NCBI GenBank assembly: GCA_951230915.1
Contig: OX579635.1
Location: forward strand, 14,012,001 to 14,076,000
DNA: 64,000 bases
Reading direction: 5' to 3'
Source: Antitrichia curtipendula
Taxonomy: Eukaryota > Streptophyta > Bryopsida > Hypnales > Leucodontaceae
The notes beneath the pieces were generated by a model. The model was not told the origin of the DNA and did not search any database. It saw only the letters and a list, made by a program, of their open reading frames with translations. This document shows, piece after piece, positions 4,635 through 38,345 of this stretch. The translations under genes were made by a program, and so were the position numbers. Every line of letters starts with the position of its first letter. Position 1 is the first letter of the stretch.

Positions 4635-6164
4635 TCTGTACAAATCAAAAGGAGAGACTGAAACTGTTGGATAGTCCTTCACTGGCACAATTCAGGATTT
4701 TTGAGTTTGCTTTTGTGATTGTTTTTGTTCTTTTCCCTTGGCCGTTGTGGTGGCTGAGGTGGTTTTGTATTTTCATTTCTCTCAGCACGGGTGGTCCCTT
4801 CATTGGTTTTAAAATTTCAAAATTTCAAAAAAAAAAAAATCCGTATCACATATATTCAGAATGTAAGTGAAAATTGCCAGGTCACTTATACTCCTCAGAG
4901 TATAAGAGAGGTGGGTGTTTTAAGGGCTGGCCAGAGGGAATTTATCTCATTTTTTAACCTCGACAAGTTTTGATTGGATTCACTTAGAAATCGTACCTCA
5001 AGATGGCTCTCTGATTGCTTCAAGGCAAATTTGAAGGTCCGTTTCAACAATTAGAAATCACCTCCTACATCAACAGCCTCTGCTGCAAACCCCATCGCTT
5101 TTCATTCCATAAAATAACAACAAAAATGAGGCCAACTTGTCTACTAACATTAGATCATTTTTTAGCCTAGCCTCTGATGAGTGCGAAGCAACAAAGGTCC
5201 GGATCTCCGGAATGAAAAACAACGGGGTTTGTTGTAGTGACACAAAAACGTTGTTGATAACACTAACCCGTGCTTCCAAACTTTGACTTGTTACTAAACA
5301 TTGTCCAAAGGAACAACGTTGTCAAACATGTTTGCAGAAATCCATGCGTGTTTGCTCAAGCATGTTCACTACTACAAATTGGAGGGTTTAGAAACGTTCA
5401 TTTTTGCAGTTGCAGTCAGAAAATTGTAATGATCAACCTCATTACTAGAACTCAATGAATTGTAAACCCAACACAATTTCTGGGTAATAAAAGAACTGCA
5501 ATGTAAGAGCACACAAACAACATCCTAATCTGCATGCAAGGATAAAAGAGTACCCCAAACCGCCACTATTTTGCTACTGTGCCTAGTTACTGCTACTAGA
5601 TTGGTCAAATTTTCCTACTTTCTTGTTGTTGGCAAGTGAAAGGAGGTTCTAATGCACCAAAGAATGTGACATTTGGATATTGTATGCAAAAGTTACAAAG
5701 GGTCAAAGTTTTTCTGATAGCTTGTTCTAAAATTGTTTCTTCAACATATGTACATATTGATTTTGGAGATGCACATAGTGATGATGGCAGTTTTAGGCAA
5801 GGTGCAATTATGCATGTACCCACTTGACATTTGCCTCAATGAATTAATGTATGGGGAGATCTAGTTGTTAGTAAAAATCAGCCGAGTGAAATTTGTAAAT
5901 TACCGTCTGAATTTTGATGTTTTGGTCGTATAACCAGACAAAAAAACTAGGAGTATAGGAAGTGCACCACTTCTAAAAAAAATGATGATTTTTTGTCCTT
6001 TTTTCATCAAAAACAAACATATTTTAAGTGGCCTACGCAAGCTTCCATTAGTTCCCACATGACTAGTCCAACGGTATAGCCAACATTAACTTCAAAGTAG
6101 TGAAAAATATTCAACTATTGTCTCACAAAGCTTATGATGACAATAATTGTGAGTGCTTAGAGAT

Positions 6165-6367
6165 GAGAAGACAAGCTCTTTACACAAGTTGGGTGGTAGG
6201 AGGTAAAACAACCCATGTATGATATGTAAATTAGGATTAGTAAAAGCTCATCTATTCATAGTTGAGTAAAAAGCAGGAATTGTGTTCAAGTAGAATTTCA
6301 AACCTTATTTAGACATAATAGAATATTTTTTTTCAAAAAACTTTTATCCTCAAGTGCTCCAACGTCC
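6165..6367. repeat. Foldback-family copy, left fragment, split by the 14-kb element
   Basis: The segment with 'gggtggtaggaggtaaaac' and 'gcaggaattgtgttcaag' matches the left arm of the foldback element at 36821-38345. The matching right part resumes after the 14-kb element (20361-20900). The 14-kb element therefore inserted into an older copy of this repeat. Confidence 0.5.
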
Positions 6368-6378
6368 ATATCCTAGAC
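6368..6378. repeat. Target-site duplication, left copy
   Basis: ATATCCTAGAC, identical to 20350-20360 in the same orientation and directly abutting the inverted-repeat ends of the element. Nine to eleven bp is the usual duplication size of Mutator-like elements. The last C may belong to the element instead, giving 10 bp. Confidence 0.9.
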
Positions 6379-6440
6379 AACGACGCTAGCGTGTGAGCGT
6401 GGAGCGGCGAGCTTGTGAGCTGCGACCGTGGAGCTTGTGA
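6379..6440 (+). repeat. Left terminal inverted repeat with TGTGAGC array
   Basis: AACGACGCTAGCGTGTGAGC followed by repeated GCTTGTGAGC-type units. It pairs imperfectly with the right end (20300-20349). Repeated short motifs at element ends are typical transposase-binding sites; that role is inferred here. Confidence 0.75.
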
Positions 6441-7353
6441 GCCTAGAGCCCCCCCCAAAAAATATTTCACTTTTTGAGGCCCAATTTTTCTTTCCAAATT
6501 TTTTTACTTTAAAAAGTGGAAATTTTACTATTTATAGTAAAATTCAGGACCTATGACCGCGGCACCTATAACCGTGCAGGCAGTTTATTTCAAAAGGTTT
6601 AAGGTGCCAAAAGTAGAATTTGAATGTGTTTAAAACTTGAACTTCACTCTGCAGTTCACCACTAAGTTCACGCACTACAATTGTGCTGAATACTGAATTA
6701 TTAAATTTTTATGGAACAGAACAAACCTAAATTGAGGTAATCATCACAGTAGCAAAGGTGAGTATTACATGGCCTCCACTTTAGCTGTTGTGGATGAACA
6801 CTTAATACGAGACTTATCATAGAGACCTTGTTCAATAGCTGAATTTGGGGCCTCATTGGATTTGGAATACGCATAGTCACATAGAAGTCTCATAGAGCAC
6901 TCTTCAATGTAATCCAAGGGGAAGGAATGACTACTGGTCGAAAAAAATAAAATGCAGTATAGGTGTCCCTCCACCCCCCAAAAGAAGGGGAAAAAAATGG
7001 GAAAAAAATAGGAAAAAAAAATGAAAAAAAAAATGAAAAAAAAATGGCAAAACAAGTTGGAAAAAAATGGAAAAAAATGAAAAATAAAAAAATTAAAGAT
7101 TAAAAAAGTAGGAAACAGGGAAAAAATGGGAAACCGAAATGGTAATGAAAGTATATTTGTGCATGACAAGTCGCAAATGTACTTCAAGGGTTTAGGTACC
7201 TTCTTCATTCAAAACATTTGGCTAATAAGGCACACTCCCATATGTCATGAAAATAGAAATTTTTTAAATTCCGAATGATTCAAATCATTTCAATCGTATA
7301 TAATGTAAAATTAATACCATACGAATTAAGTACATAGAAAAATGTACACATCT
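6441..7353. other. Left subterminal region of the 14-kb element
   Basis: Non-coding DNA downstream of the transposase. It holds a C-run (6450-6458), a subterminal inverted-repeat arm CCTATGACCGCGG (6550-6562), and an A-rich simple repeat made of 'aaaaaaatgg' variants (about 6970-7130). An open frame on the minus strand through the A-rich tract is a low-complexity artefact. Confidence 0.6.
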
Positions 7354-10300
7354 CTACTCTGGAACGGTGATGATCTCTGCTCGAAGTAGAAGAAGCTTCA
7401 ATTCGTTGAAGCTATAACTCGGTGCATGAATGAATTTGTCATCGTGGATGTCCATTTTGCAGAAGTACCTGTATAGGTAGTACAAGTGTTTGCAATTGAC
7501 ATATTGCTGACGACCTCCAATAGCTGACACAACCATATTCGCAAAGTCCGGACATGTACAGGTGGGGAACATACCCACTGTAACTCGATAGACACATCTT
7601 TTATGCTCAGCCCCCGTTTCAAGCGACACTATCGCACCTAAGCCCGGGAAAGGAAGCAAGGTCACTTCTAGTATTTGTCCTTTCACGTTCCCAGCACTCT
7701 CCCACTTGTTGCGATGTTCTGGAGTTGGTGCATTTGGAAGTCGGCGTATGGATCGGTTGTTCCTCACCGTTGGATATACATCTGCATTATCTGGCGGCGG
7801 CTGGTCATATAGAACACTCTCGAATATCTTTGACATTTTAAAGAGACGACGCGGTGACAATGTAGGTTGCTCTTGCAGACCGAATCCCACGTGCTGCAAC
7901 AACAGAGTCTCCTCCCGACTTAGGTTTGTATCTATCAAGACAGGCCATACCTCGGGCACCTCGGGCCAATCAAGAACCCACTTTCGCTTGTTTCCTTTGA
8001 CACATCGTTCATTGTCATCCCCACAGAACCAGAAGTCTGCGACTACCACCCGCTTACTCCCGTAATCTTCCTTTCTTCCATGATACGTGGGAGTTGGGGT
8101 TCCCTTCCATCCTCTAGCAATTCTAGCAGTGCACTTCAGATTTGATCCACGTTGTTGCGCTTGACATTTTGCGTTAGATTTGTGGCTGATTCTGGCAATG
8201 TGCCACTTTGATGTGTCGTAGTCACTTTCAAATGCAACCGTAACATGTCGTGATGGCTGTACCTCAGGCTGTTTTCCTTTGTCCTCGGAAGACTCTACTG
8301 AAACCGCAGTGGACCTTGTTCGAACACGAGGTTGAGAAAAATTGACCTTGTCCGGACAATGTGAGTCTCCTTCATCTCCAATGGGGACGTCCAACTTCCT
8401 CTTCGTACTTCCAAATATTTCTTCTCCTTCCAAATGTGGTATTCGGGTTCCAACTCCCTCGGCTCCAGGTAATGTGTTCAGTGCTTCTGCCATTTTTTGG
8501 GGGTCTCCGCTTCGTCTTGCAGCTCTCAACTTCAACTCCCCTTTTGATGGACCCGATCCACTTGCATGGCCTTTTAAGTAAGCACGGTAGTTTGTCATTT
8601 GCATCCACGCACGGATACTATCATTGCAGGTGGCGTCAAACAAATTATTTCCTCTATTTCCGGACATTTGAAGCCACTTGTTGTGAACTGTCTCTGACAA
8701 ATTGCATGACGGCATGTCCGCCATCTCTTCCAAATTCAAATCCTAATAATTCATCCACAAAATGAATATGTCATACGGTCATAGAATACCTTATGTAATA
8801 ATCCCACAAATTTGCATAAGTCATGGTAATTCACAAATCCTTTCATTGAACCAAATCATGTAGACCATCAAAACAAATTTTACAAAACATTTCTGTCTAT
8901 TTGAACAAAAGTAGACAAAAGGAAATGTAGGAAATTCGAATTGAACATGATCTTACCATTTGCATGAAGCCCCCCCACTGGCGATACCTGAAATGCCAAA
9001 ATGCAAGCCAGTGGTCTAAGTGATGAAGCGCATCTTCTGTGGCAGCTCCTGATGATAACCACCACGACCGAATAGCAAGGTAACGTGTCTCCGCCTCGTC
9101 CAGAGTCTTTGCATCTTTGTATTGTTTGCATAATGTATTGTGATGCTGTTGGAATGCTTCCTTGATGTACTTCTGTGTGTGTTTTAGAAGAGAAGTACTC
9201 CAATGCAATAAGCATGTCCTCTCCCGATTTTCCATTTTCTTGTCTGCAGAACCACTTCCGTAGACAATGCGGACCGCATTCCAATTAGCCATGGCGCTAT
9301 CCGCCATGAATCCCTTGAAATTTGGATGATCTACTCCATGTTTTGACATGACCGCGTTCAAGCATCTCCAGAATTGTACTTGGATCTCGGTATCTTCAGA
9401 TTGCATATCGCACGTTGATATGGTCATCACCTTCTTGTACTGCGAGTCGTACACGTGGCACGCCATCGTGGTCCATTCCTTCACGCGCTTCACATGGTCG
9501 AACATCATCCACGCATTCTCAAGATTCCCTCCGGATTGCATGCGTCTCACCAGGTCCACTCCACTTCTCGGTCCTTCAGTGAGCATCTTGAAAATATACA
9601 CCTTCTCTTTCCCTTGGCCAGGGAAGACGCTGTCATGTATGAACTCAAACTTCGACTCTTTCTTCATGGTCATTATGTTGTCGATGACCCCTCCTCAGTT
9701 GTTTGATCGAAATGAAGATATGACGTTCCGTATATTAGGACTGCTCAAGTACTGGAAACGGTCCATGACTTCCTCCAACTCCTTCCCCTTCAACATCTCC
9801 TTGTCTCCCTCTCCGTTGTGAAAGAGATAGCTGGTCAGGAACTCTTTGCTTGCGGATAGAGCAATTGCAGAGTTGGTTGCCTTTGGCGTCTTGGTTACTT
9901 GCTCTGCAATAAGTCCACATATTTCCTCTGTAGAATCTCTGTACATGCCCTTTGCAACAGGATGAGCATGATTTCCAAAGTGAACTGCGGCTCTACTCAT
10001 TTTTGGGTTGTCACTATAGCAGTAGTACATCCTACCAGTGCAAGTTTCCAGACATGAAGGTGCAATCTTGCAGACCTTGCAAACTAGAGTGCAATCTTTA
10101 GGTGAAGCGCTCCTAACTGGAAATGGGAAGGTTGTATAACCGCTCCACTTTGTCTCATTGCGTTTAGAAGACCTCTTCAAATAATCATAATCAGGATTCT
10201 CACAGACAAGATGACCCGCGCAATAAGACTTACGGAACCTCAGATTGTCGGAGTTGTGAATGTTCGTGGTCAATACCTTGCACCATGGGTGTCCATCGTA

Positions 10301-11110
10301 CCGCCTGTCCATTCCTTCCAAGTTCCTAGCCGCCGACGAAGACGGACATGAGCGACATGCAGGCAGTTCGAAGATGACATCCCCGTTGAATATCAGTGGC
10401 AGAAATTGTACTCGGTGATGCTTTATAGTGTTTAGATCCATTGTCGACAATTCGTTCCTAGAGCGATGCATACTGGCAAGCCTCCTCAAGCACTCCATTA
10501 TGCTCACACGGTCGACTACATTTGGATGAAATGGAGGGCGAGTCACTAGTGACTGCGCTGGACAATTTGACGGGGTGACAGACACTGACTTCGAAAGCTC
10601 AACATCTTCCGATGTAGTTTGGATAGAGCATGTTTGCTTCCAAAGCGTTAAGTCAGGTGACTCTCCTTCTGATTCACTAGACAACTCTATGATAGTATCA
10701 AGTTTCTCAACCTTAACTTTACGTAGAAGAGCACCTTCTAAAAATCTCGAAATTAAATCCGGCTGAGGACCAGGTGAAATAGAATGGGTGACATATGGCA
10801 TATCCATTGTCGACGAATCTGACTGACGACTTCTAATCTCAGTTGAAGCAGCTAGTAAAGATAGAGGAAGGCCATACGCTCTGTAGTTTCCAGAAGCAAG
10901 GTACCAATAATCACCTTCTGCTGACCTCACGACAGGAATAGACTGCTGTAATTCACCTGAATCTAACTTCCTCTCTTCTTCAACATAGATGGAAGTTTCC
11001 AGAAATCTAAAACGGACGTGAAGTAGGTGACTCATGACACGAGCATGTCCTCCGTCATCCACTGGGAAAACCAGGGGAACTTCGTGGCCATCCACTCGAA
11101 TGGAAGCCAT
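7354..11110 (-). CDS. Mutator-like transposase (GCM/WRKY-like finger, DDE core, SWIM finger), one in-frame stop
   Basis: Two exons, 11110-8957 and 8742-7354, joined over a 214-bp intron (ATG|GTAAGA ... ATTAG|GAT), give about 1,180 codons. ATG at 11110 (MASIRVDG) is the first good start. Regions: a SUMO-interacting-like patch TIIELSSESEGE (139-150); a Cys/His-rich GCM/WRKY-like region (about 268-388) with WCKVL, VCKVC and HFGNHAHPV; a DDE transposase core (about 520-715) with candidate Asp 538, Asp 604 (FMADSAMANWNAV), and the CxxH motif of Mutator-like enzymes at 633-636 (CLLHW); and a SWIM zinc finger CxC...CxH (Cys1113, Cys1115, Cys1135, His1137). The third acidic catalytic residue was not assigned. 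Codon 472 (9697-9695) is TGA, in the same frame on both sides, so the present copy would make a 471-aa N-terminal protein without readthrough. The product would bind the element ends and catalyse excision and insertion in the nucleus. It is divergent from the plus-strand genes. Confidence 0.85.
8743..8956 (-). other. Intron of the transposase gene
   Basis: GTAAGA donor and TTATTAG acceptor on the minus strand. Removal joins FRYRQWGGFMQM to DLNLEEMADMPSC in phase 0. Stops in the intron confirm it is not coding. Confidence 0.75.
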
Positions 11111-11713
11111 AGTGTAGAGTATGTACAAAGAGAGGAATGGAAGCAAACAAAGTCTCCCCTTAATGGAAAATGATAAGCAAAGAACTATTGTGAATCAGAG
11201 TAGTCTAGAGGATTCTCCTACCGGAAAAATAGAAAGAACCTCGCATGATGGAAGCAAATAGTGGAATATTTACTAATCACTTATAGGAAAGCTGTCACAC
11301 TGCGTGTCAATCACAAATTTAACGCCGTCATCTGGCAATTAAATAAGTGCATAGTGAATGTAGGGGCGCGTTTAATAATTCCGCACCGCCTCCATATTTC
11401 GGACACTTCATTATTACACTACAATTGACAGGAAAAGCTAATTCAGAGTTTGCTAATGAAGATGTTGGTGAACACTATTCAAATTTGACGGCACATTCAT
11501 GACTGAAATTGATAGCTGTCACTCTTTTCAAATTCAAAAGAGAGCTACAAGAGTGAGCCTACTCTGGGCTGTGCTGTCTGTGCCTATGTGCAGAAGGCTT
11601 TCAAAGAGCACAAAAGTCATATGCACTTACCGGGATCGCAATCTTAGTCCCATTCTAGTTGTGTACCGTTTGCTTTGCCAAGTGAGAGTTAGGGAGAGGT
11701 AAGGTTTGACCAC

Positions 11714-12019
11714 ATGCACTCAGGCAACCACATCTCTCTTTGTAATGCTTCAGAGCGTCCCAAGCATCGTATGAGGCGTATATCTTTGTATTTCTCGTCT
11801 TCCAAAGCTCTTAGGAGATCTAGGATGACTCGACCCAAAAGAGTAGTGTCTAAAGCGAGTCAGCATTCAGACGGGAACTTGAAGAAAGTCCTTTCCTATG
11901 GAGGAGGTGATACGGGCCCAGAGGAGGCCGTTGGAACTCAGATGCATGATATTGGGCAAGGAATATCGGAGGATATCACAAGCATTCAACATCACTCAGA
12001 AGATGAGGGAGTTGTACAG
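11714..12019 (+). CDS. Possible small exon, basic N-terminal then acidic
   Basis: An ATG-initiated frame of 102 codons runs to a reasonable donor (CAG|GTTAGC at 12020) in phase 0. It contains a basic stretch (RRSRMTRPKRVVSK) followed by an acidic part (HHSEDEGVVQ). The phase would allow splicing to the exon at 14908, making it an alternative first exon of the accessory gene, but I see no independent proof. I do not recognise the protein; it may also be non-coding. Confidence 0.25.
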
Positions 12020-12439
12020 GTTAGCAATTTCAAGTACAATTTGTTCTCATGCATGGAAAGCCTAAATATCATTTCAATGTAACGTGGAAAGCAGATCAGG
12101 GCGGTTGGCAGCTTCAGTTACCAAAGGTCATTCTTCGTCATTTCGCTGATCTTCTAAATCATTCTAGAGGGTAGTCCACTTGCAATTTTACAAATCACCT
12201 AATGAAACAAGTAATGAGGTAAATCCAAGGCGAATGTATGTTACTGCATGCCCGAGGAAGTCCAGATTCAGTACTAAAGTCATGACTGTTGGTTTAGCCG
12301 CCATTTTTAGCGCTGGGAATTTCGAAATTTTATCGTGACTTCTCGTGAGTACCGGCCATTCACTCGGTTGATGAGAAAGGCAGTGATATCTGCTGAACTC
12401 GGCGGTATCCCCAAACTAAGCGGAGACAGTTGAGAAACG

Positions 12440-13020
12440 AAAGTATCCACCGATGTTCCCGCTGCACTCTCTTCCATTTCGGCAATGGGCGAGGGTTTCG
12501 ATCATTGGGAGAACTGGTGACGAGCGCAGTGAGTGAATCAGCCACCGAAAGGGCTGTGTTTTGCTTGCATTCCAGCATTGGCTTGGGGGTTCGGTCATTG
12601 AGAGAACTGCTGACGAGTGCGGTGAGTGAACCCGCCAGCGAAAGGGCTGTGTCTTGCTTCCATTCCGGCATTGGCTTGACAGCGCGGTCATTGAGAGAAC
12701 TGGTGACAGCGCGGTGAGTGAATCGCCACCCAAAGTCTGTGTCTTGCTTGCATTTCGGCACTGGCGAGGGTTTCGGTCATTGAGAGAACTGGTGAGAGCG
12801 CGGTGAGTGAGTCGCCACCGAAAGGGCTGTGTCTTGCTTCCATTTCGGCACTGGCGAGGATTTTGGTCATTGAGAGAACTGGTGACAACGCGGTGAGTGA
12901 ATCGCCACCGAAAGGGCTGTGTCTTGCTTCCATTTCAGCACTGGCGAGGGGAGCGGTCATTGAGAAAACTGGTGACCAGCGCGGTGAGGGTATCCGCCAC
13001 CGAAAGGGCTATTTCTTCGC
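12440..13020. repeat. Tandem repeat, 89-93 bp unit, about six copies
   Basis: The landmark TCATTGRGAGAACTG recurs at 12502, 12595, 12688, 12777, 12867 and 12957 (spacing 93, 93, 89, 90, 90). Each unit also carries CCGAAAGGGCTGTGTCTTGC and a CACTGGCGAGG-like stretch. Open frames through it on both strands are by-products of the periodicity. Confidence 0.85.
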
Positions 13021-13126
13021 ATGGTCCGCGTCTGCGTCCGCATGGTCTGCATCGGTTTTCTCTTTCAGTTTAGAGTTTAGGTTTTCTTGTAGTCGGTCTC
13101 TAAATCCAGACCCAGTCGTTCCATGG

Positions 13127-13144
13127 TTTAGGGTTTAGGGTTTA
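13127..13144 (+). promoter_or_regulatory. Telobox-like TTTAGGG repeats
   Basis: TTTAGGGTTTAGGGTTTA is two and a half plant telomere repeats, 57 bp upstream of the ATG at 13201. Teloboxes are known promoter elements in plants and can recruit telobox-binding factors; activity here is inferred. Confidence 0.5.
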
Positions 13145-13200
13145 CAAAGGTTCGTAACTGAATCACCCTAGCTGTGCAGCAAAACCACAAAATCACAACG

Positions 13201-15360
13201 ATGAGGAAACTCCGGAGCCGAGTTCGAGACACGACCAGCCCGCCGGGGGAGACCCTCACCCCATCGCGGCGCCGTCCGACATCAACCACTCAGGAGCAGG
13301 TAAGTCCAAACGGAAATCCATTTACTCGATTCAACATGGTCATCGGCGTGTGTTCATGGCCACTTTCCCTTTCAATATGTTCATCGATCCCACAAAAAAA
13401 AAAATTCAGTCCCGCTGCGGCCTGTCACCCTCCCCGTACCGAAAACGGGGGTAGCTCGCGCCACCCCCGTTTTCGGTACGGGGAGGATGACCGCCATAGC
13501 GGGATTGATTTTTTTTTCTCGGGATGGCTTCGGTTGTCAAGGCAGTTCTGCTTCCGTGACAAAGAGGAATCGATTTTTGTTTTCTCGAAACCAATTGAGT
13601 GGTCGGGTCTAGCTAGTGGCCGTGACCATGGCAGCAGCGGGTCAGAATTTTGTTTTCTCGAAATGAATTGATTGGTCGGGTCTAGCTAGTGGTCGTGACC
13701 ATGGCAGCAGCGGGTTAGGAATTTGTTTTCTCGAAACCAATTGACTGGTACTGTCATGGCGGTCGCTGTGTCCAAGACAGCAGCAGGACAGAGCTTTTGT
13801 CTCTCGGGACCCCTTGTGGCTGTCAAGGCAGATTCTGCTTCCGTGACACAGTGGGACAGATTGATGGTTGCACTAGTCGGTCCCTCTCCGTGAACCAGAA
13901 AGAGGGGTAGCGTGAGCTACCCCCCAGACCCCCTTTGGACCCGACAGGGGTCTGCGGGGTAGCTCACGCTACCCCTCTTTCTGGTTCACGGAGAGGGACT
14001 GCCTTCTACAAGGCTATTTCTTATAATCCTACGGGGTATCTCACCGGGTTTCATCCAATTGGGCCATAACCCTTGCACAATCCCCACTCACTAGATAGAG
14101 TTAATACGCATTTGTTATCACATTACATTAAAATGATCATGCTTGTCTCGGGTGTTGAGCAACACCCATATTGGATAGCTCACCATAGAGATTTAATCTC
14201 TGTGTGGGAAACACAGCTGACAATTTCAACACATCGTTTTTTGGTAAATCCGCATTGCTGCATCTTGTGAAATCCATCCGTTTACTGTTCACTTTGCCAT
14301 TAGAGCATGCAGTACGTGTCAGTGAACCAAAAAGAGGGGTAGCGTGAGCTACCCCCAAACCTTTGTCGGGTCCGACGGGGGGTACGGGGATTACTCACGC
14401 TACTCCTCTTTTTGGTTCACTGACAGGGACTGTATGCTTGAAGGCCTTCAAAAAGTGTCGAGTTACTTTTATTCTTCCTTTCTTGGTGATGGTCAAAGTG
14501 CTTCATCATCCAAGTTGCACGACCATAATTAAGTAATCAAGAACACACTTTAAGAGAGTTAGCAATTTTGCTTGAAGAATTGAAATGTAGAATCTCTCGT
14601 CGTCCCAATTTTGAGGGTAGCGTGAGCTACCCTCATGACCCCCGTCAGACCCGACGGGGGTCGTGGAACTTGGTCGTTAAAGCATTCGAAGTAGACATTT
14701 CAAATCTGAAAGGGGTATGCTTTTCAAATGTCCATCTATGTTTAATCTAATATGCACTTGTCGTGAATATAATCCTAATTGTATTTCTAAGAGTTTTAAT
14801 TATGATTTTGAATTTCTCTTAAATCATTATTGTGTCCTCTTAATAAGCATTCTCATATTACTAGTTTCTTGGTTTTATTGATACAGTTTACATTGTGTGT
14901 TGTTTAGATGGAGGTAAATGAAGGTCCCAGAGGTCAGGGATCTTTATCCGATGCTGAGACTTTGACTGTGACGGCCCTTGACATGGCGGGACCATCCTTA
15001 CCATTGACTCCGATGGGTGCTAGCATTGAGGTGCCAGAGGAGTCCATTGCAAATGAGAATTTGGACTTCGTAAGCCTCGATGACATCTTGGATGCGTGTG
15101 ACCGTGCCTGTGACTATGTGGAGCAGCCACATGAAAGCCATGTTAGTGGAGAGAGGACCCGAAAGAGGAATCCCGTGTTGTCCTCTGGGAGCTCCAGCAC
15201 GGAATATAGGTCTAGATGTCACTCTTCAGTCTCAGTTTCTAGTCCTCCTTTTCAGGAGTTTTGTGACTGTGCTTGCAGTCACAATTTGGGCAAGCACGAT
15301 GTGGTTATTATTCACCTGAGTTCTGACTCAGATGATGATGTTGATGTTGATTCCATTTAG
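13201..15360 (+). CDS. Small acidic accessory protein of the 14-kb element
   Basis: Proposed exons 13201-13299 and 14908-15360, joined in phase 0 (GAGCAG|GTAAGT ... TTGTTTAG|ATG), giving 183 aa and a TAG stop at 15358-15360. The first exon is Arg-rich (MRKLRSRVRD). The second is Ser/Asp-rich and ends with HDVVIIHLSSDSDDDVDVD, a hydrophobic core followed by Ser/Asp as in SUMO-interacting motifs. If the first exon is not used, translation could start at ATG 14908 (150 aa). I do not recognise the family. The proposed intron holds the palindromic hairpins. Its position just upstream of the ParB-methyltransferase gene, in the same orientation, suggests joint expression. It could also be a 5' part of that gene separated by stop codons. 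Confidence 0.5.
13393..13519. repeat. Palindromic hairpin H1
   Basis: Long imperfect inverted repeat centred near 13456. The core arm CCTCCCCGTACCGAAAAC is followed by GGGGGT and then its complement. The outer arms (AGTCCCGCTG / TAGCGGGATT) extend the pairing to roughly 60 bp per side. Confidence 0.8.
13579..13800. repeat. 73-bp tandem repeat, three units
   Basis: GTTTTCTCGAAA starts at 13579, 13652 and 13725, exactly 73 bp apart. Shared internal text includes GGTCGGGTCTAGCTAGTGG and ACCATGGCAGCAGCGGGT. The third unit is diverged. A further direct repeat (GTCAAGGCAG..TCTGCTTCCGTGACA) brackets the array, near 13535-13562 and 13820-13850. Confidence 0.8.
13880..13999. repeat. Palindromic hairpin H2 with two GGTAGCGTGAGCTACC boxes
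   Basis: Nearly perfect inverted repeat with about 53-bp arms (GTCCCTCTCCGTGAACC at the outer edge). Each arm contains the 16-bp near-palindrome GGTAGC-GTGA-GCTACC (13906-13921, and as reverse complement at 13958-13973). Confidence 0.9.
14305..14437. repeat. Palindromic hairpin H3 with one intact box
   Basis: Inverted repeat of about 60-bp arms with GTCAGTGAACC on the outside. It carries GGTAGCGTGAGCTACC at 14338-14353 and a degenerate copy in the other arm (ATTACTCACGCTACTC). It is related in sequence to H2. Confidence 0.85.
14613..14662. repeat. Palindromic site H4 with one intact box
   Basis: GAGGGTAGCGTGAGCTACCCTC (the 16-bp box at 14616-14631), immediately followed by a second hairpin GACCCCCGTC..GACGGGGGTC (14637-14662). 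Confidence 0.8.
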
Positions 15361-15639
15361 GTGGAATTCATATAATTTGTTAGTGATATCACTTGTACGT
15401 TTTGATTTTTTATCTGTGTTTCATTGACATCTGTCATATTTCATACGTGAACTAGCACAGCATATTCCATGCATTTCATTATGAATTGTCTGACTTTATG
15501 ATTTTCGTGGACGTCCATTATTTCGCAGATGGAAGAGTCACCTATTAGTCGGACCTAGGCTGAGAGACATACGGTGACACCACCTACTGATGATTTGACA
15601 CAGCCAGAGATTGGAGGTGACGATGGTGAGGATTTGGCT
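15361..15639 (+). promoter_or_regulatory. Spacer and 5' leader of the ParB-methyltransferase gene
   Basis: After the accessory-gene stop, an intron-like stretch ends in TTATTTCGCAG, followed by ATG at 15529. This ATG is in frame with the downstream gene but meets TAG after nine codons (15556-15558). The next in-frame ATG is 15640. The leader therefore contains either a short upstream frame or a nonsense mutation removing the original N terminus. Confidence 0.5.
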
Positions 15640-18600
15640 ATGGATGTTGTGGATGATGACGAGGAGGCCAAAGAATTGCTTGAGGATGAGCTTCAGAGAT
15701 GGCAGAAGGTGGACTCGGTGTCTACCATTGCGAGTTTGAGGATGAAGCCAGAGAAACTCTCCCGACTGCGCATTCCACTATGCAGACTTGTGTCCATGCC
15801 AATGGTGAGGCCAACGCTTGCATCCGACCTCGTCAAACTAGAACAGGAGTTCATCTTTGGGTACCGAGAAGGCGCAGCGGTGTTCTACGCGTCCATAACC
15901 AATGAGGCTGGTGAGAGCTCGGACTTCACGGAGGAGGAGATGAACGGATGGGATACATGGTGGAAGAAAGCGAATCTGGATTTCAAGAAATATCTTGAGT
16001 CGGTTCCAGAGCTTCTGTTCATGAAGAACTTGAAGTTCTTCGTCTGCGATGGGAATCATCGCCTTCAAGCTTGGATGAATCCCATTTCCAGGCTACATAC
16101 GGCGAACCCGCTATTTCACTTTGCAATTGACAGTATTATCTTGGATACGAAGGGGAGAACCGAATTGGTCATGCAGGTGATGCATGATGTAAACAAGTAA
16201 GCATTATTGCTTCTTATGTTGTATATATATCCTCTATTGATCAATTATTTAGGAGTATGTGTTATTACGTACATGATTCACGTCACTAAACTTTTACATT
16301 CCATTTCATATCAACAGAGGACTCTCACGTGAAGTCCAATCTTGTGCACACTCTTCACCGCGTGCAGAAGTACGGTCTTCTCTCCTTGGAGCGATTTAAG
16401 GAGATGTTAAGGCCTTTGGAGAGGCAACGGTGTGTTGCCCAGGCCGCGGGGAGGAAGACGTGGTATTCTATGCCCGTGGAAGTGTTTACGACATTTCTAT
16501 TCCGGGTGAGCTTCTCTGATGGTCTGGGATCTAATATTGAGTACTTCCACCTTGAACTTCTTTACAATAGTGGCCTTTATTTGTTGAAATGGTTGTTGAT
16601 AACATGTATTTGCAGCAAGAGATTGCACAGGCATCGGATGCTGCAGTGCGAAAATACAACGAGGGCACACCGATTGAGGAGAAATCGGTAGAGGGAGTTG
16701 CGAATGCCATGAGATTGGGAGCGAAGGAGAGAGCCTCAAAGTTGCAGGTGAAAATGGGGAAGTTGATTGCGGTTGCAAACCCAGCTCATGGTCCCGGATT
16801 TCTAGAAGAGGTGAGAAGTAATTGCTAACCATCAATGTTAACAGTTCTTGTAATTGGATTTTATGTTCGGTTGTTCACTTGAGAAGTTTCGATTTCGCAG
16901 AGAAGCAGTGGACCACAAATGAGGTCCCCGAAATGACCCTGGAGAAGCTACAGATGATTGCAACTTGCAATACAACGGCAGCACAGAAGTTGAAACTTCT
17001 GAAGTGGTGGAATTCCTCCATGCCCTCTCGAGATGCGAGACGGTTCCCAGCAAAGCCTGTTTCAGAGGAGAAACTGTTGCCATTCCTCAACAAGTTTGTC
17101 TGGTGGGCAGGGGTAAGTTCATTTATGAGTTTTTATTAAACTATTAGCATATCTGGATTGATTTTTTAATTGATTTGGTTTGCCATTTTCAGTACTTATT
17201 TACTTCCAAAGCACTCAAATGGAACTTATTTATTGTTGATGCCACAGATTGAGAATGGTGCTTCGGAGTATTTCGAAAATATTGCCAAGAAAGACAACCT
17301 CCAGGTCAACATGGCAACCCCGCTTGAGCCAGAGACACTCGCCGAGTACATTGAAGGGTGGAGGAGGAAAATTTGGGATCACGGGTTTGGTCCCGTGATG
17401 AAGGGAGCAAATGCATTCAAGAAGTCAGACTCCTTCTCGAGTTATGACGGATCAAAGCTTGCTATTCAACGAGTTATTTTCCGGTATGACTTTCACAGCC
17501 TACATATTCCTCTTACTTTGATCAATGCGAGTGTCACACTAGCAATATGTTCTAGGTACATGTGACTATTCTCTAATATAGTATCCACATACGTATTTCT
17601 TAATTACATGAAGTCGAAAATATATAGAGGGATGATTGGATATTATAATCCTTTATAATTTAATGTAGGTTGAGTTCCAACTGTATTCTTCATCTCATGC
17701 TTATGTAGCAGTATTAAAATGGGAATGGGAATGACTATTTGTTCGGCATGCCTAATGTTCTGTCTCTGTTTGTGTTTATTGCAGTTACTTGAAGCATGAG
17801 CTTCTAGTTAAGGCTGCAATTGCTCGGGAGGATCTTCTTCCGTTCTTGTCTACTTGGCTGGACCGCAGTTCCAAAGAGTGCATGTACACCCAAAGCCAGC
17901 TTCAGACGTTTACGACAGCTCATCTGACAGGAGGAGGGTGGTATTTGGATTGTCACGTAACATTCACTCATCCTCTAGAGGCAGACCTTCGGAAGTCACT
18001 TGATGGAATTGGAGTGATTGACTTGGAGGTTGCAAAGTTTGCTGACCTCAGTGACCAAAAGAGGAGGAGGGCCATTGCGAGGAGGATTACTTCAGACAAG
18101 AAGAAAGAGACAACTCTGGAAGACATCATAGCAAACAGGGAGAAGAAAGAGGCGGACCGCTTGGCAAAGTTGGCTGAGAAAGAGAAGGAGGCGGAGTTGG
18201 AGGGGAAGGGAAAGAGCAAAGGGAAGAAGAAGGTGGATGGAGGTGGCGAAGTGCCTGCAACTTCAACGGTGGACCAGGGCTCGGCTATGCAAGCTGGATC
18301 TGGTAGACGGCTGAAGAGGAAGGCGGTATTGTCTGAGGTGACAACGGACTTGGTCACGCAAGGGACGGATGTCATTGTGATTGGTGATGATGGTGAGGTC
18401 AACTCCGAGGAGTTGATCTTGAACATCTCCATTGTGGATGTCATGGATAATGTGGATGCAGAAACGGCGACATGCTACAGTGAGGTCATGGAGTTCATTA
18501 AGAAGGTAAGGTATTAGTATTTCAAATTTTGTAATTCGGTATTGCAATGATGAACTTGAACACTGTATACTTGTACAATTATTGATTGATTATTCATTCA

Positions 18601-20020
18601 TTAATTAGAGGAAATTTGTTTTGTAGTCATCGGCAGGAAAAGCACGCACACACGGCGGCATTGTGAGCCGTGCGCCACTAGTGGATCTTATTTTTTTCGA
18701 CTGCCAAGAGAATTTGCCCGTGCCGGACGTCTCATTTCCAGCAAATGCAGTGCCTACATGGAACTCAGACCCGGAGTACGATGACATTCAGCAGGCATTT
18801 CTTTTTGCAAAGGACCATTTGCAAGACCATGGCTGCATGGTAGTATTCCACTCGTACTGCGCAGATTCAAAAGGCGTCATTAAGGGTTTATGTGTCACAT
18901 ACCCGACGCTGGTGGTGAAGAAAGAGTGGCTGGACATTAACCGTGTGCACTTGACCTCCCCATTGGATGAAAGCACTACGGTATGATTTTTGAATTAATG
19001 CTCGTTTGGTAAGTATTTGGCATTAGTGATGAAACTTCTTAATTTCTGACAATTTTTTGGTTTTCGTGATTGCAGACTCTGAAGTTTGGAATCACCCTTT
19101 TGGTGAAGGACCTTGGGGCAAATGGAAAATCGAAGTTCTCTTATATGCGCACAAAGTCTATGCAGAAGGCGAAAGTAGACCTCGCAAGGGACGACATGCT
19201 CATTAACTACACGACGGAGGAGACCATGTTGATGAACGAGAAAATACCATGGCGGGGGGCTCGCGAGAAGGACCCTAGATTCTTTCAGTTCTTGATAGAA
19301 GGGACTACCAGTGAAGGAGATTTAGTGGTTGACTGCACAGCATCGACTGGTAAGTTTTGAATTCAATGATGTTGCAGTTCATTTGTTTATCATATTGTCG
19401 AATCATATCATTTACATGATTTCGAATCATTTCATTTACATTCTTCATCGCAGGTGCATCCATTACAGCTTGTCGCGGCACAGGCCGCCACATTGTGGCT
19501 TTGGAGGAGGACAAAGATATTTTTAACGTCCTCCTTTTGCCCATGAAGAAGAGCACTCCGGTTGTAGTGACAGCGGAAGTGACAGAACCGCCAGCACCGG
19601 TTGAGGCCTCCCAAGATCCGGACGCCATGACGGTGGTGCCCCGGAAGTTTGCTCGGAAGAATAGAGCCAGTAAGTAAGTTTCTTCATTTATAAATATTTT
19701 GTGAATGCATGGTGCTTTTTTCTCTATGAGTCTAACATTGTGTCATTTGTGTTTGCAGTCGTGAGGGATTGATGCCGACAGTTTCTTTGTTGAAGAAACG
19801 TAGACTTCTCATTAGTCCAGAGAAGTCTTTTCATCTTCCGGTGTATGCCAAGAAGATGGCATTGTCATTTGCGGATTTCGGTTGCTCAATTCCAAAGCCC
19901 CGTAAACCTTCTTACGCTAGAAATGTTTTAGAGTTTATTGATGGATCAGCATCTGAGGGTAGAGAGACATTAGATTCATCTACGAACGAGGATTCTGAGA
20001 CTGAGTCCACTGCCACTTAG
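15640..20020 (+). CDS. ParB-like domain fused to a DNA methyltransferase-like domain (transposon cargo)
   Basis: Ten exons: 15640-16176, 16320-16505, 16616-16810, 16903-17112, 17248-17483, 17785-18505, 18627-18980, 19076-19349, 19454-19673, 19759-20020. All introns are GT-AG and every join keeps frame, giving 1,064 aa. The acceptors of exons 2 and 4 are CAGAG, so an alternative AG two bases upstream could break the frame. Residues 40-180 are ParB/sulfiredoxin-like, with DGNHRLQAW (DGNHR 137-141). A long helical middle follows, then a Lys/Glu-rich coil (542-605) and a SUMO-interacting-like patch DVIVIGDDGE (650-659). The C-terminal half resembles beta-class N6/N4 methyltransferases: motif IV-like VDLIFFDCQEN (714-724) precedes motif I-like GDLVVDCTASTGAS (894-908). 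The usual (D/N/S)PP(Y/F/W) reads DCQE and motif I lacks the first Gly, so cofactor binding is plausible but catalysis doubtful. ParB-methyltransferase fusions are known from bacteria and phages. The tail (979-1064) is Ser/Thr/Glu-rich. Likely nuclear. Confidence 0.75.
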
Positions 20021-20349
20021 ACTCATGAGATTGACATATCTTATGAGTTGAACTATTGTGTATTGATTTTCATTATGATTGGATTTGTGTGTTTTATGGC
20101 TACATTTTGGACGTCATTTCTATCCTTTTATTCTTCTGGAATGCGTGATTTCAATTCAATTGATATGAATTAGTGATTGACATAACTAAATTGAAAAGGA
20201 TTTCTAAGTAACATAAACTTCCAATATTTTCACTCACATTTATGAGAATTTCTAATTACCTACGTCCACGGTCATAGGGCCCGGCAGAAAAATTTCTCCG
20301 AAATAAATTCCCGCTCACAGGCTCACAGGCTCACATGCTAGCAACCGTG
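20021..20349. repeat. Right subterminal region and terminal inverted repeat
   Basis: AT-rich 3' flank of the methyltransferase gene, then the inverted-repeat arm CCACGGTCATAGG (20266-20278), pairing with 6550-6562. It ends in three GCTCACA units and ATGCTAGCAACCGTG, the counterpart of the left tip. Confidence 0.8.
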
Positions 20350-20360
20350 ATATCCTAGAC
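20350..20360. repeat. Target-site duplication, right copy
   Basis: ATATCCTAGAC, identical to 6368-6378. Confidence 0.9.
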
Positions 20361-23300
20361 AATTAATGGAGGGCTTGTAGGCATTATGTAGTCCATTTAA
20401 CTTCTCATTCATCCAATTTAATACTTGAATGTTGAAAAAACAACCTCTCTTAATGACCAAATTCATGAAATTCCAAAAAATAATATTTTTGCACAAAGAT
20501 ATGAGCAAAAAAATTTCAAGATTCAAAAAAGGATCCATGAGTTTAAGGATTAAACTAAATTAATGTGGGAAATCAAGATATTTTTCATCTCCAAAATTTG
20601 TTTGTGATTTCAAGCCTCCAATCAAAAGATATGGACAAAGTTCAAAGAGGGGTTGGAAGGGACATTTTTTTTGACATTTTCAAATATCCTATGTGAACTT
20701 TGTCCATATGTAACATTTCTTTGAAGGCTCAAAATCACAAATGGTTTTTTGGAGATGAAATTTAGCTTGATTTTATAACTTTTTTTAGTTCAAAGATTTT
20801 GAAAAAAATAAATCTAATATGTCAAAATGAGGTCTAAAATTTTACTTGAGCACAATTTTTACATTTTGACAATGAGTAATTAGGCTCTCTTCTTCAAGTT
20901 ATCCCATATCCTTTGAAGATTCATTACAAACAATGGATTTCATTATAAAAACAACCTCTAAATTCTCCACTCACACTAATTGGCAATGAAGAAATTCCTT
21001 TTTTTACCATGAAAAAAATTCTTGATGGTAGTCGATCAAATGATAGATTGGTATCTAACTCAATTGATTGTAATTGGATTGTTTAGATTTTTGACAAACC
21101 ATATTTACAATTATTGATAGCTCTGACTCTTTGGTCCTAGAATTAGTAGAAAAATTTGGCACTTTTTTTTAATTAATTTAAGCTAAATTTGTTATCCAGG
21201 TATGGTAGTGTGCAAATAAACTACCTTCAACTTAGGAATTGAATTGAATTGTATTTTATTTGTTGATTTTTTAACCGACTGTTTTTGCAAACTTTAGGAA
21301 AATGACTAGAATGCCAAAAAATATTAGGTTATTTATTGGATTAAATAACTAAGCTTGGGCAACAACCAAATGACCATAGAGAACTACCAAATGACATGTG
21401 AAAAGAACGGCAAAAAGCTAAGCCATCTTGTAAACTCTCCGTTTATTGGAGTTCATACACTATAAGCTCTTTGACAATGGCACTTCAAAGTATAGTTTCA
21501 TTCAAACTCCAATTTTAAGGGATCCAGTCACTTTCTCAATGTGCCCATTAAATAATATGGATCAACTAGAAATCATTTTATTTAAAATGTAGGATATGAT
21601 TTCATCACAAGTGTAATCAAGTACAAGAATCCACCTAAATTTATTCTTAGAGGGTGGTTTGAAGAGATTGTTATAATGAAGAAAAACAATGAATTGATTT
21701 AACCCCTAAATGACTAAAGATTCTACTTTGGGATCTTTGAAAACTTGAAAAGACTCAATTGACTTCTTATTTAGGAATTTAAGCAAGAATTTCTCAAAAT
21801 GGATGCTAATCATCATAATCTACATGTAAAGCTTTGTTTCACATCATTCTAATAAACAATACAAAAATTATAACTTTTTTTTATTTCAATGTCAAAGTAG
21901 GTAGCTAAAAGTTTATTCTAAAAGTATATTTATTCATTTTATGTGATTATATAGATTGATACCTATTCAAATACATTTGAACCATCCAATTTTGAGTAAT
22001 GAGATGAAAGTAATCGAGGAGTTTTATTTTGGAGGCAATGAAAAAAGAAAAAACACACAAAGTTATTTTTTTAATTCAATTTTGAAAATCTTCCCTCCCT
22101 CCCTCCAAAAAAGAAGATGTTAATTGTGTCATATTAGAGCATTCTCACTATTGAGATGAACAATGTTTTATTTCTTATAAAAGTTATTAGAGATATATTT
22201 TTTTCCTTCATCTAGTACCACCTTTTACTTTATAATTTTTTGAACCTCAATAGTCCCAAGAGTCCCTTGGGAACACTCTTGAAGGTTTAGCTAGGTACTT
22301 GTAATCTCAATTTTTGGTAAGATTTTTTTAAAGATAGGAGCTTTTCAAAAATATAATTTTATTTCAATCAGTGCCCAAAACGGTCAAAAGTGGACAACAA
22401 ATAAACAAAAACTTGAAATAATTTTTTAAAGATTTGTTTTTATAGCTTATATGTTAATACCTATGTGGAAAGATTTTATTCATTCCATTTGGATAAGTGA
22501 TGTGAAAGTCATGAAGCTGCTTCTTTTTGCAAGAAATTTTAGGAAACTATTGAAAAAATAATATATTTGATTTGTTTATGAACTCAATTTTAGCAATGTT
22601 ATATACAAAAAAAATGCACATGGTTTAGTTTAGTTTTTATAACAATCTCATAGTTTGTATTAGTGTGTTTCAATTCCATCTTAGAGCTATCAACAATTTA
22701 GTTTTTCCTTTCATCTCATACCTATTCCGGTTTAACAATTTTTTAAAGAATGAAAATCACATGGGGCTCTAATTAATAAATTTACAAGCTCGCAACTCAA
22801 TTCTTCAACATAAAAGAAATTTAATTCACAATGTATACTTCAAAAAATTTAAGTTAGGAGGATTCAAAGCCTTTTAGTCTAGCTAAGCTAGGAGCAAAAA
22901 AACTCATTTTCTTCACTTTAAATACATATATCTTTTTATCGATATAGTCAAAGCTTTTGAAATTTCTTCTAGACCTTCATATACTAATTTAGTGCAAGAT
23001 ACTATGGTTGAAAATGAAAAAAAGAAAAAAAAATGTTTAAAATTTTTGTCGTTTGCATTGGAAATGGCATATTTTTGATGATTTTTTAATGATAAAATGG
23101 CTTTGGAATTTAAGCATTAAAGATTAAAGTTTTTGGATTAAAATTTAATTTTTCACATATTTTCAATCCATTTTCCAACATATCGTCTAAAATGCACAAG
23201 TTATGAGACATTTGTTTTTTTCTATAAATAAATACAGAGACAAAACTTCACCTTTAGAAAGGTTAGAAGAAACTACTTTAGGAAGTTTAGGTACATTGAA

Positions 23301-28240: not shown

Positions 28241-28700
28241 AAGAATTGTATTCAAAATATAATTTCAGAGTTTTTTTAAAATTAATTTAGACTAAGTTAA
28301 TGTTTAAAATTAAGATATCTTTCATCTTCAAAAATTTGTTTGATATTTCAAGCCTCCAATCCAAAGTTATGGACAAAGTTCATAGAGGGATTGGAAGGAA
28401 TATTTTCTTTGACATTTTCAAACATCCTCTCTGAGCCTTTTTTTAGAGGCTCAAAATCACAAACGGATTTTTAGAATTGAAATTTACATTAATTGAATAC
28501 ATTAATTTAGTTCAAAGTTTTTTGAAAAAAAAAAATTCTAGTATGACTAAAAGAGATCTAAAATTCAATTTTGAACACAATATTTGCTTATGACTTAACT
28601 ACAAGCTGTTAAGATCCTACTAATCCTAATTTATATATCCCACATGGTTTGTTTTACTTACTAATATCCCATTTATATAAAAAAATTGTCTTTTCTTCTC
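28241..28700. repeat. Foldback-family copy, partial
   Basis: Contains the internal palindrome ('ccaatccaaagttatggaca' / 'ccatagttttaga'-type arms) and the right arm ending 'atatcccacatggtttg', as in the 36.8-kb copy. The outer left arm is missing. Confidence 0.5.
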
Positions 28701-29667
28701 TTCTCTCAGTAAGTGACTTTTGAAGCTATATGACATAGTTGCCAAACACATTCAATTTTTTGGAAATTAATGTTGCATTCTTTTAAAATTAATACATTAA
28801 AGTGTCAAAGCTTAATAATTGGTGGGAATATAACAACATGGTCAATCTAAGCCATCAGCTTGCCTATCATTAACATTATTGAGAAGTACTCATGAGCTAT
28901 CAAAGAAGAATTAAGTAAGTGGGAACTTCTAGAATTGGTGAAGTGAGCAGGAATGGGAACTAGGCTTGAACAGAACCTCCCTAGGATCCAATCTCCTAAT
29001 GACGAATTCTCTCTTGATAAAAAAAATTCAATCAATATATTATTGTCTAGGCAATTTACCACTTGCATAGAATTTAGGGGTTTTAATTCACTTTTCATTT
29101 ACTACATTGTAACCAGTACACACTTTCGACGACTATTGAACAATGTCCTCCTAGGATCAAGTCGGGACTAAGCTTACCACTGAGTTGAACCTTTGAATGT
29201 GGAATTCCACCAGGTCTCTTGGATGTGGCTCTTGGAGGGTTTTCTAAATATGTATATCATCAACAATGGTAAAAAAAGTTTAAATAGACAACAAAGTGCT
29301 TATTAATCTTTTTACTACGGAAAGTATGACGTTCAAGCAACAATCCTGAGAAAACATATCGAAGTGCTATGAGAAAAAGAATTTTTAGACAATGTTTTTC
29401 AAAATAAAATCTTTTAGAACTTTCTATGGATCACCTCTTGATACTATAATTGAAGAGTATATTTTTGCATTATTTGTTTGCAATCCAATGATTGGCACAC
29501 ATATACTTCCAACAACTTTCCAACCAAGGACAAATACATGTCTAGTAATTTTGCCACAAGGCAATGACAAAGTATTCTACCTTTCAAATTGTATCCCACA
29601 AAACATCCAATTGCAGTGAAAACAATGCAACAATTACAAAGAGATTGATTGACCAATGTTTGACACC
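28701..29667. other. Gene-free region
   Basis: AT-rich sequence with two short open frames lacking any recognisable feature. Nothing supported. Confidence 0.4.
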
Positions 29668-36820: not shown

Positions 36821-38345
36821 GACAATTCTTTATGTACATATGGGGTGGTAGGAGGTAGAACTGGGATAAGTATTTTAAAGTTTGTAATTTCTCAACCGCT
36901 TATAGTTAAGTCTAAAGTAGGAATTGTGTTAACCCCTAAAGGACCAAACACTGTTTTTTGACAACATAGCGATTTTGGGCAGCTCACTATGACCAGAATT
37001 TTTCTTTTTTTTCTTTGAAATTTTCACATAAGATGTGCCCGAGGAGTAGCTTTAAGGTCCAACAATTTTCGTAACTTTTGACTACGTGTTAAAAAGTTAT
37101 TGCATGATATGTCATTTTCATTGTTCGGCGGGTTGCCGGGGCAGCAAAAAAAACTTCTTTAAAAATCACTTTTTAAAAAAACTAAAATTTCAAATTGGTT
37201 CTTTAGATTTATATGTACGTGGGAGGCTTTGAATCATTCCATTCCGATCAATGAGTCAAAAGTTATGAGGATTCTTAGTTTGAAGGTAGTTATGGAATCT
37301 CTACTCTAAAATAAACTTTGAAGTCCTTTATTTAACTCGATTTTCAATATTTTTGAAAAAAAATAAAAACATTGGGTGTAGATTGTTTATTACAACATTG
37401 CAATAGTTGGGATTGGCATTTTTCAATTTCATAAATAAATTCTTGACAATTTAGTGCTTTGAATCATTCTCTACCTCTTCCTACTTACTATTTTTTTCCT
37501 ATATGTTGTACAATTCCAAATGATCTGAAATTTTTCAAGCATGTAGCCAACTTGCCTTGAAGAATAAATCCAAAGAGTAACCATCATTTTGGACATTGTT
37601 TCATACAAATGTGACCTTGTGGAGGGCAGCTGCCCGTTTTTTCTCAGGGACAAAAAAAGGGTTTTTGTCAATTCAAACGCTATTATCTTGCAATCCACTT
37701 GGTGGAAAATTCTGAAATTTTTTCCACATCTTCTTAAACAAGTTTACTACAAGATCCTACGGCTACAAGTGTCCAAAAATGTTTTTTTTCTAAAATTTGG
37801 CACTAGTATTAGAAATGGCAGTTCTGGAGCGGTTTTGGTGAAAACATAGTCAAAAACCTTTAGGGGTTAAAACTATAATTTCAGACCTCATTTAGGCATA
37901 GTAAAATAACTTTTTTTTAAATACTTTGAACTAAAATAAGTTGGAGAATCAAGTTAAATTTCATCTTCACAAATCAGTTTGAGATTTTAATCTTCCACTC
38001 AAAAGTTATAGACAAATTTCATAGAGGGGTTTGAAAGGATTTTTTTTTGACATTTTCATACATCCTCTTTGAAATTTGTCCATAACTTTTTAGTGGAAGA
38101 TCTAAATGTAAAACGGATTTTTGGAGATGAAACTTAGCTTGATTCCACAACTTTTTTTAGCTCAATTTTTTTTGAAAAAAGGTATTCCACTATGCCTAAA
38201 TGAGGTCTGAAATTATAATTTTAACACAATTCCTACTTTAAACTTAATTATTAGCGGTGAGAAATTACAAACTCTAAATTACATATCCCACATGGGTTGT
38301 TCTATCTCCTACCACCCCAAGTGTACATAAAGAGATTCTCTTTTC
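36821..38345. mobile_element. Foldback element with a nested piggyBac-like MITE
   Basis: The outer arms are inverted copies (left 'ctttatgtacatatggggtgg'-type start, right its inverse ending 'accaccccaagtgtacataaag'). The centre (37930-38140) is another palindrome, so nearly the whole unit folds on itself. The left arm is interrupted at TTAA by the 942-bp MITE 36929-37870. The uninterrupted right arm shows the original TTAA site. Fragments of the same family occur at 6.2/20.4, 28.2 and 42.9 kb. Confidence 0.7.
36929..37870. mobile_element. piggyBac-like MITE, family 1, copy at 36.9 kb
   Basis: TTAA on both sides; tips CCCCTAAAGGACCAAA and AAAACCTTTAGGGG inverted. Closely similar in body to the copies at 56.8 and 59.0 kb. 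Non-coding. Insertion is proven by the intact TTAA in the opposite arm of the host foldback element. Confidence 0.75.

Follow-up and report, generated by a model that had tools for sequence, protein, structure and literature searches.

What does a gene resembling a DNA methyltransferase do inside a plant transposon? The locus that raises this question lies in a 64,000-nucleotide stretch of the Antitrichia curtipendula genome (here the window; G000:C3:14012001-14076000, in a genome of 400 Mb and 303 contigs), in which a first-pass annotation had recognized a Mutator-like transposon of about 14 kb carrying, besides its transposase, a "ParB-methyltransferase" gene, hereafter the cargo. We found that the element is a worn member of a large Mutator-superfamily family with several subfamilies, and that the cargo is an old, long-term element gene and not a captured fragment. 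The reading we prefer, with a probability of roughly 0.5, is that of a degenerating copy with a putatively non-catalytic, DNA-binding accessory protein as its cargo, functionally like VANC or another accessory protein of Mutator-like elements (MULEs).

Borders, family and gene order of the element

The complete element occupies positions 6378-20349 of the window (13,972 bp), with borders matched by a second copy, by a target duplication and by empty sites. The 11-mer ATATCCTAGAC occurs exactly in the window only at 6368-6378 and 20350-20360, with two more places at one mismatch. The second copy, c7 (L036 and L037, fetched around C2:16557810, the nearest copy of the cargo exon), can be aligned exactly from 6378 to 20349 at 97% identity on either side of the repeat region, and no match was found beyond these two positions in the 142 and ~770 bases of c7 flank that were compared. 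On each side c7 is bordered by GCTACACAAG, a 10-bp duplication, and the more divergent copy cB (L038 and L039) is bordered by the 10-bp duplication GTCTATAACG. Because the base following the left duplication is C in all three bordered copies (window, c7 and cB) whilst that following the right one varies (A in c7, T in cB), the target duplication measures 10 bp (ATATCCTAGA) and the eleventh base of the repeat is the element's own terminal C; the element therefore begins CAACGACG. The "perfect 11-bp duplications" of the first-pass annotation thus stand as identical flanking repeats and lose one base in length. A duplication of constant length, 10 bp in the three bordered copies, falls within the range of about 8-11 bp that characterizes MULEs. 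The inverted tips, previously noticed from GCTAGC/TGTGAGC, are repeats in register (CAACGACGCTAGCGTGTGAGC vs CACGGTTGCTAGCATGTGAGC, 16 of 21 bases identical), short and imperfect unlike the long terminal inverted repeats of many MULEs, and many copies have the same left tip. TGTGAGC occurs eight times in the element, and six of these occurrences lie within about 65 bp of the tips, three per side.

Empty sites with a single target, which had been proposed as a check on the insertion, were sought with a 300-base query in which the window's two flanks were joined with one target copy. Of the 40 scored places, two were the flanks of the window itself; the other 38, all paralogous, cross the junction without the element at 80-87% identity; in the six aligned base by base there is one target sequence each (diverged, and in one case with a small insertion) and no element. 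The insertion therefore took place in one member of a dispersed repeat family, for which 1,916 first-look candidates were counted genome-wide.

The family is large, and the counts of its members are lower bounds. A search with the 21-base left tip, allowing up to three mismatches, gave 1,000 genome places (520 + 480; 100 of them listed), as against two for a reversed-pattern control. First-look candidates genome-wide numbered at least 1,311 for cargo exon 1 (150 scored, all 150 matching) and at least 1,482 for a 265-residue stretch of the transposase (144 scored). For 13 of the 17 exact left tips the hit list includes a cargo exon in the expected orientation 9.3-15.9 kb away, and for 31 of the 83 listed tips with one mismatch it includes one no more than 25 kb away (C218, with two cargo places, being excluded).

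The transposase and the cargo, on the minus and plus strand, respectively, are separate genes, as had been stated, and they travel together across the genome. A divergent transposase lies no more than 30 kb upstream of 106 of the 150 scored cargo exons (no more than 15 kb in 102 cases, with a median of 7.2 kb). The remaining three arrangements of the two genes were seen at 1, 0 and 1 places, and reciprocally the cargo lies beside 108 of the 144 scored transposases. Random placement gave a mean of 0.8 and a maximum of 5 in 200 trials, in which the chromosome lengths of C8 and C218 were guessed. The order transposase (minus), accessory gene (plus), cargo (plus), which the first-pass annotation had suggested looking for in other copies, is kept in the divergent copies cB and cC and again in L042 (C4:35236841). 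In cC the cargo is seen to residue 459 only, with no methyltransferase exons in the approximately 3.6 kb fetched past the last cargo match.

Two ideas about incomplete members were tried on a few places. Unpaired transposases might have formed a cargo-less subfamily; L042, the one of these 36 that was opened, has both the cargo and the accessory open reading frame (ORF), and there the gap came from the extent of the hit list. Cargo-less left tips might have marked short non-autonomous elements; of three tested, two match the last transposase exon within 1.5 kb, and the third, L053, matches the tip only over the roughly 850 bp compared.

The cargo gene has ten exons by its splice sites, as previously described. 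It had also been called a full-length intact gene, and in the window copy it is not. There is an in-frame TAG ten codons past the ATG, which among 29 other loci recurs at the same codon in L024 and L034, has nearby counterparts in L019 and L035, and is absent from the other 25. The exon-2 acceptor, which is AG in 11 of the 12 other copies in correct orientation, reads AT at 16308-16309, and four bases are absent at the start of exon 4 that are present in all 12 (counts that leave out minus-strand loci and the misaligned L025). The window cargo can be read as 1,068 aa only through substitute splice sites, which overstates its integrity, whilst the c7 cargo is open for 1,113 aa with the splice sites of the family. 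The window copy is thus degenerating, though open cargo copies exist.

The cargo protein and its proposed role

The C-terminal part of the cargo resembles methyltransferases at the family level. All four aligned cargo copies are matched by a PHROG methyltransferase profile (best 1.1e-7), by the CcrM profile (best 2.5e-5, the first member far below the curated cut-off) and by Pfam N6_N4_Mtase (best 0.0008, the first member below the cut-off), and a profile search of the PDB retrieved DpnA (E 0.0013) and CcrM (E 0.01). The CcrM alignment covers query positions 16-235, from motif IV through motif I, with vdliffdcqenl of the cargo opposite VDLIFADPPYNL, so that motif IV stands ahead of motif I as in the beta-class adenine methyltransferases CcrM (6pbd) and DpnA (5hfj). 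The cargo differs from both enzymes in the replacement of DPPY by D-x-x-E, in an altered FxGxG region and in the long N-terminal part fused to it.

The replaced motif is the crux. The seven copies read for motif IV (cC lay outside this set) have DCQE (window and c7), DYQE (cB), DCPE (L043, L044 and L046) or DIPE (L045); L045 and L046 came out frame-shifted (two of the six methyltransferase pieces) and were excluded from the alignment, their motif IV being read separately. All seven keep the Asp and have Glu at the position of the DPPY aromatic residue, the one that contacts the target base in known enzymes, and none has the DPPY or near form expected of an active beta-class amino-methyltransferase. 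Because D-x-x-E is common to subfamilies with near-saturated synonymous change, it appears to be a fixed property and not the decay of one copy. The cargo reads R-[GA]-[AP]-[RH]-E-K at the place of an HPTQKP-like sequence in the phage enzymes compared; the motif-IV Asp, the motif-I region and an acidic stretch past GRHIVALE are largely conserved. Of the earlier label "methyltransferase", the family resemblance therefore holds and the catalytic motif does not, and ordinary amino-methyl transfer by the cargo appears unlikely from its sequence.

In the arrangement we propose, the transposase is encoded on one strand of the element, and two proteins are encoded divergently from it, one acidic and accessory, the other methyltransferase-like and about 1,100 aa long. 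The large protein would not methylate but would bind element DNA, most likely at the TGTGAGC clusters of the tips, at the rapidly changing tandem arrays that separate the divergent genes, or at both, and would thereby help the element either to escape host DNA methylation or to assemble its ends for transposition; of these, the end-assembly role seems nearly as likely as the anti-silencing one. The array between the divergent genes has six 90-bp units in the window and seven in c7, and is replaced by a different 81-bp array in cB. According to the passages available of the published accounts, the VANDALs of Arabidopsis are MULEs with a transposase, VANA, together with VANB and the anti-silencing VANC (PMC5735166, PMC13317346), and VANC brings about a loss of methylation by way of short motifs to which it binds, many of them tandemly arrayed and strongly divergent from one related copy to the next (PMC5735166). 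In those same accounts VANDALs share with the present element their membership of the Mutator superfamily, a transposase accompanied by accessory genes, and non-coding tandem arrays divergent between related copies. They differ in that here the accessory protein has a methyltransferase-like domain, the ends are short inverted repeats (VANDALs being called non-TIR, i.e., without terminal inverted repeats) and the anti-silencing role is putative.

Several points weigh against this interpretation. The match to methyltransferases is modest, unrelated T-cell-receptor chains following at E 0.05 in the PDB search. The non-catalytic status of the cargo is read from sequence; an altered motif IV could still act on another target, and the cargo may still bind the cofactor, since it retains the motif-IV Asp and parts of motif I. 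The analogy with VANC is functional only, set by arrangement and repeat turnover rather than by sequence, and some transposon accessory genes act in transposition itself and not in silencing. Finally, the selection values outside exon 1 (given below) come from the single pair c7-cB.

More tentatively, a methyltransferase-like protein, perhaps from phage or bacteria, may have been taken up early by Mutator elements of plants and have lost catalysis while keeping the binding of DNA, and perhaps of cofactor, to become a sequence-specific anti-silencing factor that blocks host methylation of its own element. The VANC strategy would then have been invented independently here, by a family whose left ends in the genome number about a thousand. 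To our knowledge, plant transposons that counter silencing with proteins of their own are known mainly from the Arabidopsis VANDALs, and if the anti-silencing reading is true, a second, unrelated-looking three-gene Mutator module from a different plant, conserved across subfamilies and based on a methyltransferase-like domain whose active site has changed, would mean that counter-defence evolves repeatedly; the cargo might also supply a natural sequence-targeted epigenome tool. Consistent with the earlier remark, made without a literature search, that no described plant element with this gene set was known to its author, we found no description of a plant Mutator element joining a transposase with a methyltransferase-like or ParB-like gene in the literature searched, which omits most subscription papers and bioRxiv preprints, and the main text of a 2026 review of plant gene capture names VANC and Ulp1, with methyltransferase and ParB absent from it. 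In the passages available to us, Kaonashi MULEs likewise conserve an acquired domain in many copies, this being Ulp1 instead of a methyltransferase-like domain (PMC13317346), and retrotransposons of dinoflagellates and charophytes are also mobile elements with a methyltransferase gene, but of C5 cytosine enzymes (PMC5890265).

The cargo could instead be a structural component of transposition, acting in end pairing or reinsertion and not against silencing, for which mudrB of maize provides a model. Its retention beside the transposase in the divergent copies opened and at most scored places would fit such a part, as would the repetition of TGTGAGC at each tip. We nevertheless regard this as improbable, since at least one Mutator-like element, Muta1, is excised and reinserted in yeast through the action of its transposase, as far as the available part of that report goes (PMC5225508), and it is the arrays between the genes, not the ends alone, that change fast, in the manner of VANC targets as described in the passages available (PMC5735166). 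Even if the cargo were a transposition helper only, it would be a conserved element gene that annotation might mistake for a host DNA-methylase family.

A further question is where the protein came from, and whether its N-terminal half is a true ParB domain, the whole deriving from a phage or bacterial ParB-methyltransferase. In public sequence predictions, 379 of 449 candidates (120 listed) proved to be relatives of a 186-aa stretch of exon 1, and in 29 aligned relatives its C-D-G-N-H pattern, part of the motif F-F-V-C-D-G-N-H-R that recalls ParB, is invariant at C, N and H and nearly so at D and G. When the methyltransferase part was compared with phage records at ≥80% query coverage, two of the three matches (H1 and H2, at 97% coverage, 23% identity and E 0.06) fell in genes annotated as ParB-like, which we take as a lead on the origin of the cargo. 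Against a ParB domain stand the profile searches, which gave no PHROG or NCBIfam match for exon 1 and, for 29 members, weak Pfam matches that include no ParB family, and an hhalign comparison with one phage ParB region that returned a probability of 0.4%. The predicted model of exon 1 was poor (predicted local distance difference test, pLDDT, 52), and the fold search made with it returned nothing usable, with no match at E ≤ 0.001. A true ParB domain is unconfirmed and rather unlikely, and of the "ParB" in the original gene name only a D-G-N-H-R-like motif is left. The whole spliced cargo had no protein relatives in the database searched, probably a reflection of its exon-sized predictions, and no relatives were found in the viral contigs scanned or among the plasmids searched; a match in a prokaryote genome, of 31 residues in a 79-codon open frame, was judged to be due to chance.

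That the cargo remains an active DNA (or RNA) methyltransferase of changed specificity, marking its own element so as to set the timing of transposition or to conceal the element from the host, is unlikely in our estimation. The profile matches to N6-adenine methyltransferases, the conserved Asp, motif-I region and acidic stretch, and the low ratio of nonsynonymous to synonymous divergence (dN/dS) in the methyltransferase-like exons are all what such an enzyme would predict; the Glu in place of the DPPY aromatic residue, found in each of the seven copies, and the replaced HPTQKP-like position speak against it.

The divergence values bear on the history of the whole gene set. For cargo exon 1, copies with stops excluded, mean dN was 0.020 and dS 0.058 within the subfamily of the window (78 pairs), 0.106 and 0.86 in a second group (28 pairs), and between subfamilies (104 pairs) dN averaged 0.155 with dS near or beyond saturation. 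Between c7 and cB, dN and dS were 0.10 and 1.07-1.09 for the transposase, 0.16-0.21 and 0.87-1.22 for the methyltransferase-like exons, and 0.36 and 1.97 for the accessory ORF, with cargo exon 1 at dN 0.16 and saturated dS; the comparison of the "coiled exon" was out of frame (dN 1.06) and was excluded. The gene set is kept by purifying selection and is therefore not a passenger. A recent, passive capture of a host gene, as in Pack-MULEs, can accordingly be dismissed, even for a group of elements known for gene capture, by the pairing at 106 of 150 scored places over divergent subfamilies and the low dN/dS, which bear out the earlier view that the cargo is not a captured host fragment and would suit the co-evolved module then suggested. 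Neither outcome that would have refuted the first-pass annotation, that is, transposase and cargo that never travel together or a lack of empty sites, was obtained.

Transposase, accessory gene and feature coordinates

A relative of the transposase gave a fold match to ISCth4 of the IS256 group (PDB 6xgx), a bacterial transposase, and the RNase-H-like DDE core is related to that of IS256, as is expected of a MULE; elements of the IS256 type are much smaller and lack accessory genes. ERTC..HW, a candidate for the C-H motif that MULEs have between the second D and the E, is conserved among the relatives, the SWIM motif match (E 0.011) is below the curated cut-off, and the in-frame TGA of the window copy (Table 1) falls where the frame stays open in the 29 relatives displayed of the 50 aligned. 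The accessory gene noted previously is present, as is a repeat-rich stretch between the divergent genes, and tblastn matches the 150-aa accessory ORF at 28 of 30 loci, a count that includes the window.

Table 1. Positions of element features in the window.
Feature	Position	Strand	Evidence
Left target site duplication, ATATCCTAGA, 10 bp	6368..6377	.	Identical to 20350-20359; one target copy in 6/6 aligned paralogous empty sites
Left end, CAACGACGCTAGCGTGTGAGC, TGTGAGC x3 at 22-bp spacing	6378..6440	+	c7 border, motif positions, genome tip matches
Transposase: exon 1 about 11110-8957 (TGA at 9695-9697), exon 2 about 8742-7354 with SWIM-type motif	7354..11110	-	
Tandem array, 90-bp unit x 6, between the divergent genes	12471..13017	.	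Repeat analysis; cB without match to this stretch
Accessory gene, probable first exon (MRKLRSRVRD...TTQEQ)	13201..13299	+	By-eye reading; similar frame in c7
Accessory ORF, 150 aa, ending VVIIHLSSDSDDD...	14908..15360	+	tblastn
Cargo exon 1 ("ParB exon"), in-frame TAG at 15556-15558	15529..16196	+	150/150 scored genome places match
Cargo exons 2-4 by the splice junctions of the family; no AG acceptor at exon 2, 4-bp deletion at exon 4	16310..17112	+	
Cargo exons 5-6, charged middle part	17248..18505	+	
Cargo exons 7-9, methyltransferase-like; FFDCQENL at motif IV position, DCTASTGAS at motif I position	18627..19673	+	
Cargo exon 10 and stop	19759..20020	+	
Right end, inverted tip and TGTGAGC x3 at 8-bp spacing	20300..20349	-	c7 border, motif positions, tip alignment
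Right target site duplication, ATATCCTAGA	20350..20359	.	Repeat match, empty sites

The transposase has a short hydrophobic-acidic stretch, TIIELSSESEGE, at 10660-10720 (minus strand), which we take to resemble a SUMO-interacting motif, and VVIIHLSSDSDDD at the end of the accessory ORF (15300-15360, plus strand) is presumably another possible one; such stretches are intriguing given that other MULEs carry Ulp1 as their cargo. Within the probable intron of the accessory gene lie inverted repeats (13397-13517, 13880-13999 and 14304-14438) that are 79-92% identical to their own reverse complement, possibly nested foldback elements or regulatory hairpins.

Surroundings of the insertion

A dispersed, partly palindromic and AT-rich repeat lies at and around the insertion point (6164-6340 with 20549-20870) and again at 28271-28701 and 37866-38346. 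Copies of the repeat at about 28.3 and 38.0 kb were tried as an exact empty site within the window and proved to be rough ones only, in which more than the element is absent. Three related direct-repeat copies of ~0.9 kb, 74-81% identical, stand at 36928-37871, 56847-57711 and 58973-59920 and are probably another mobile element. Finally, open frames at 47473-50342 (plus strand), which include repeats of about 72 bp arrayed at 49460-49881, are indicative of a land plant, since from the motif QVFQLHRAIEVQQLLA we take them to resemble a circadian clock gene of the ELF3 type.

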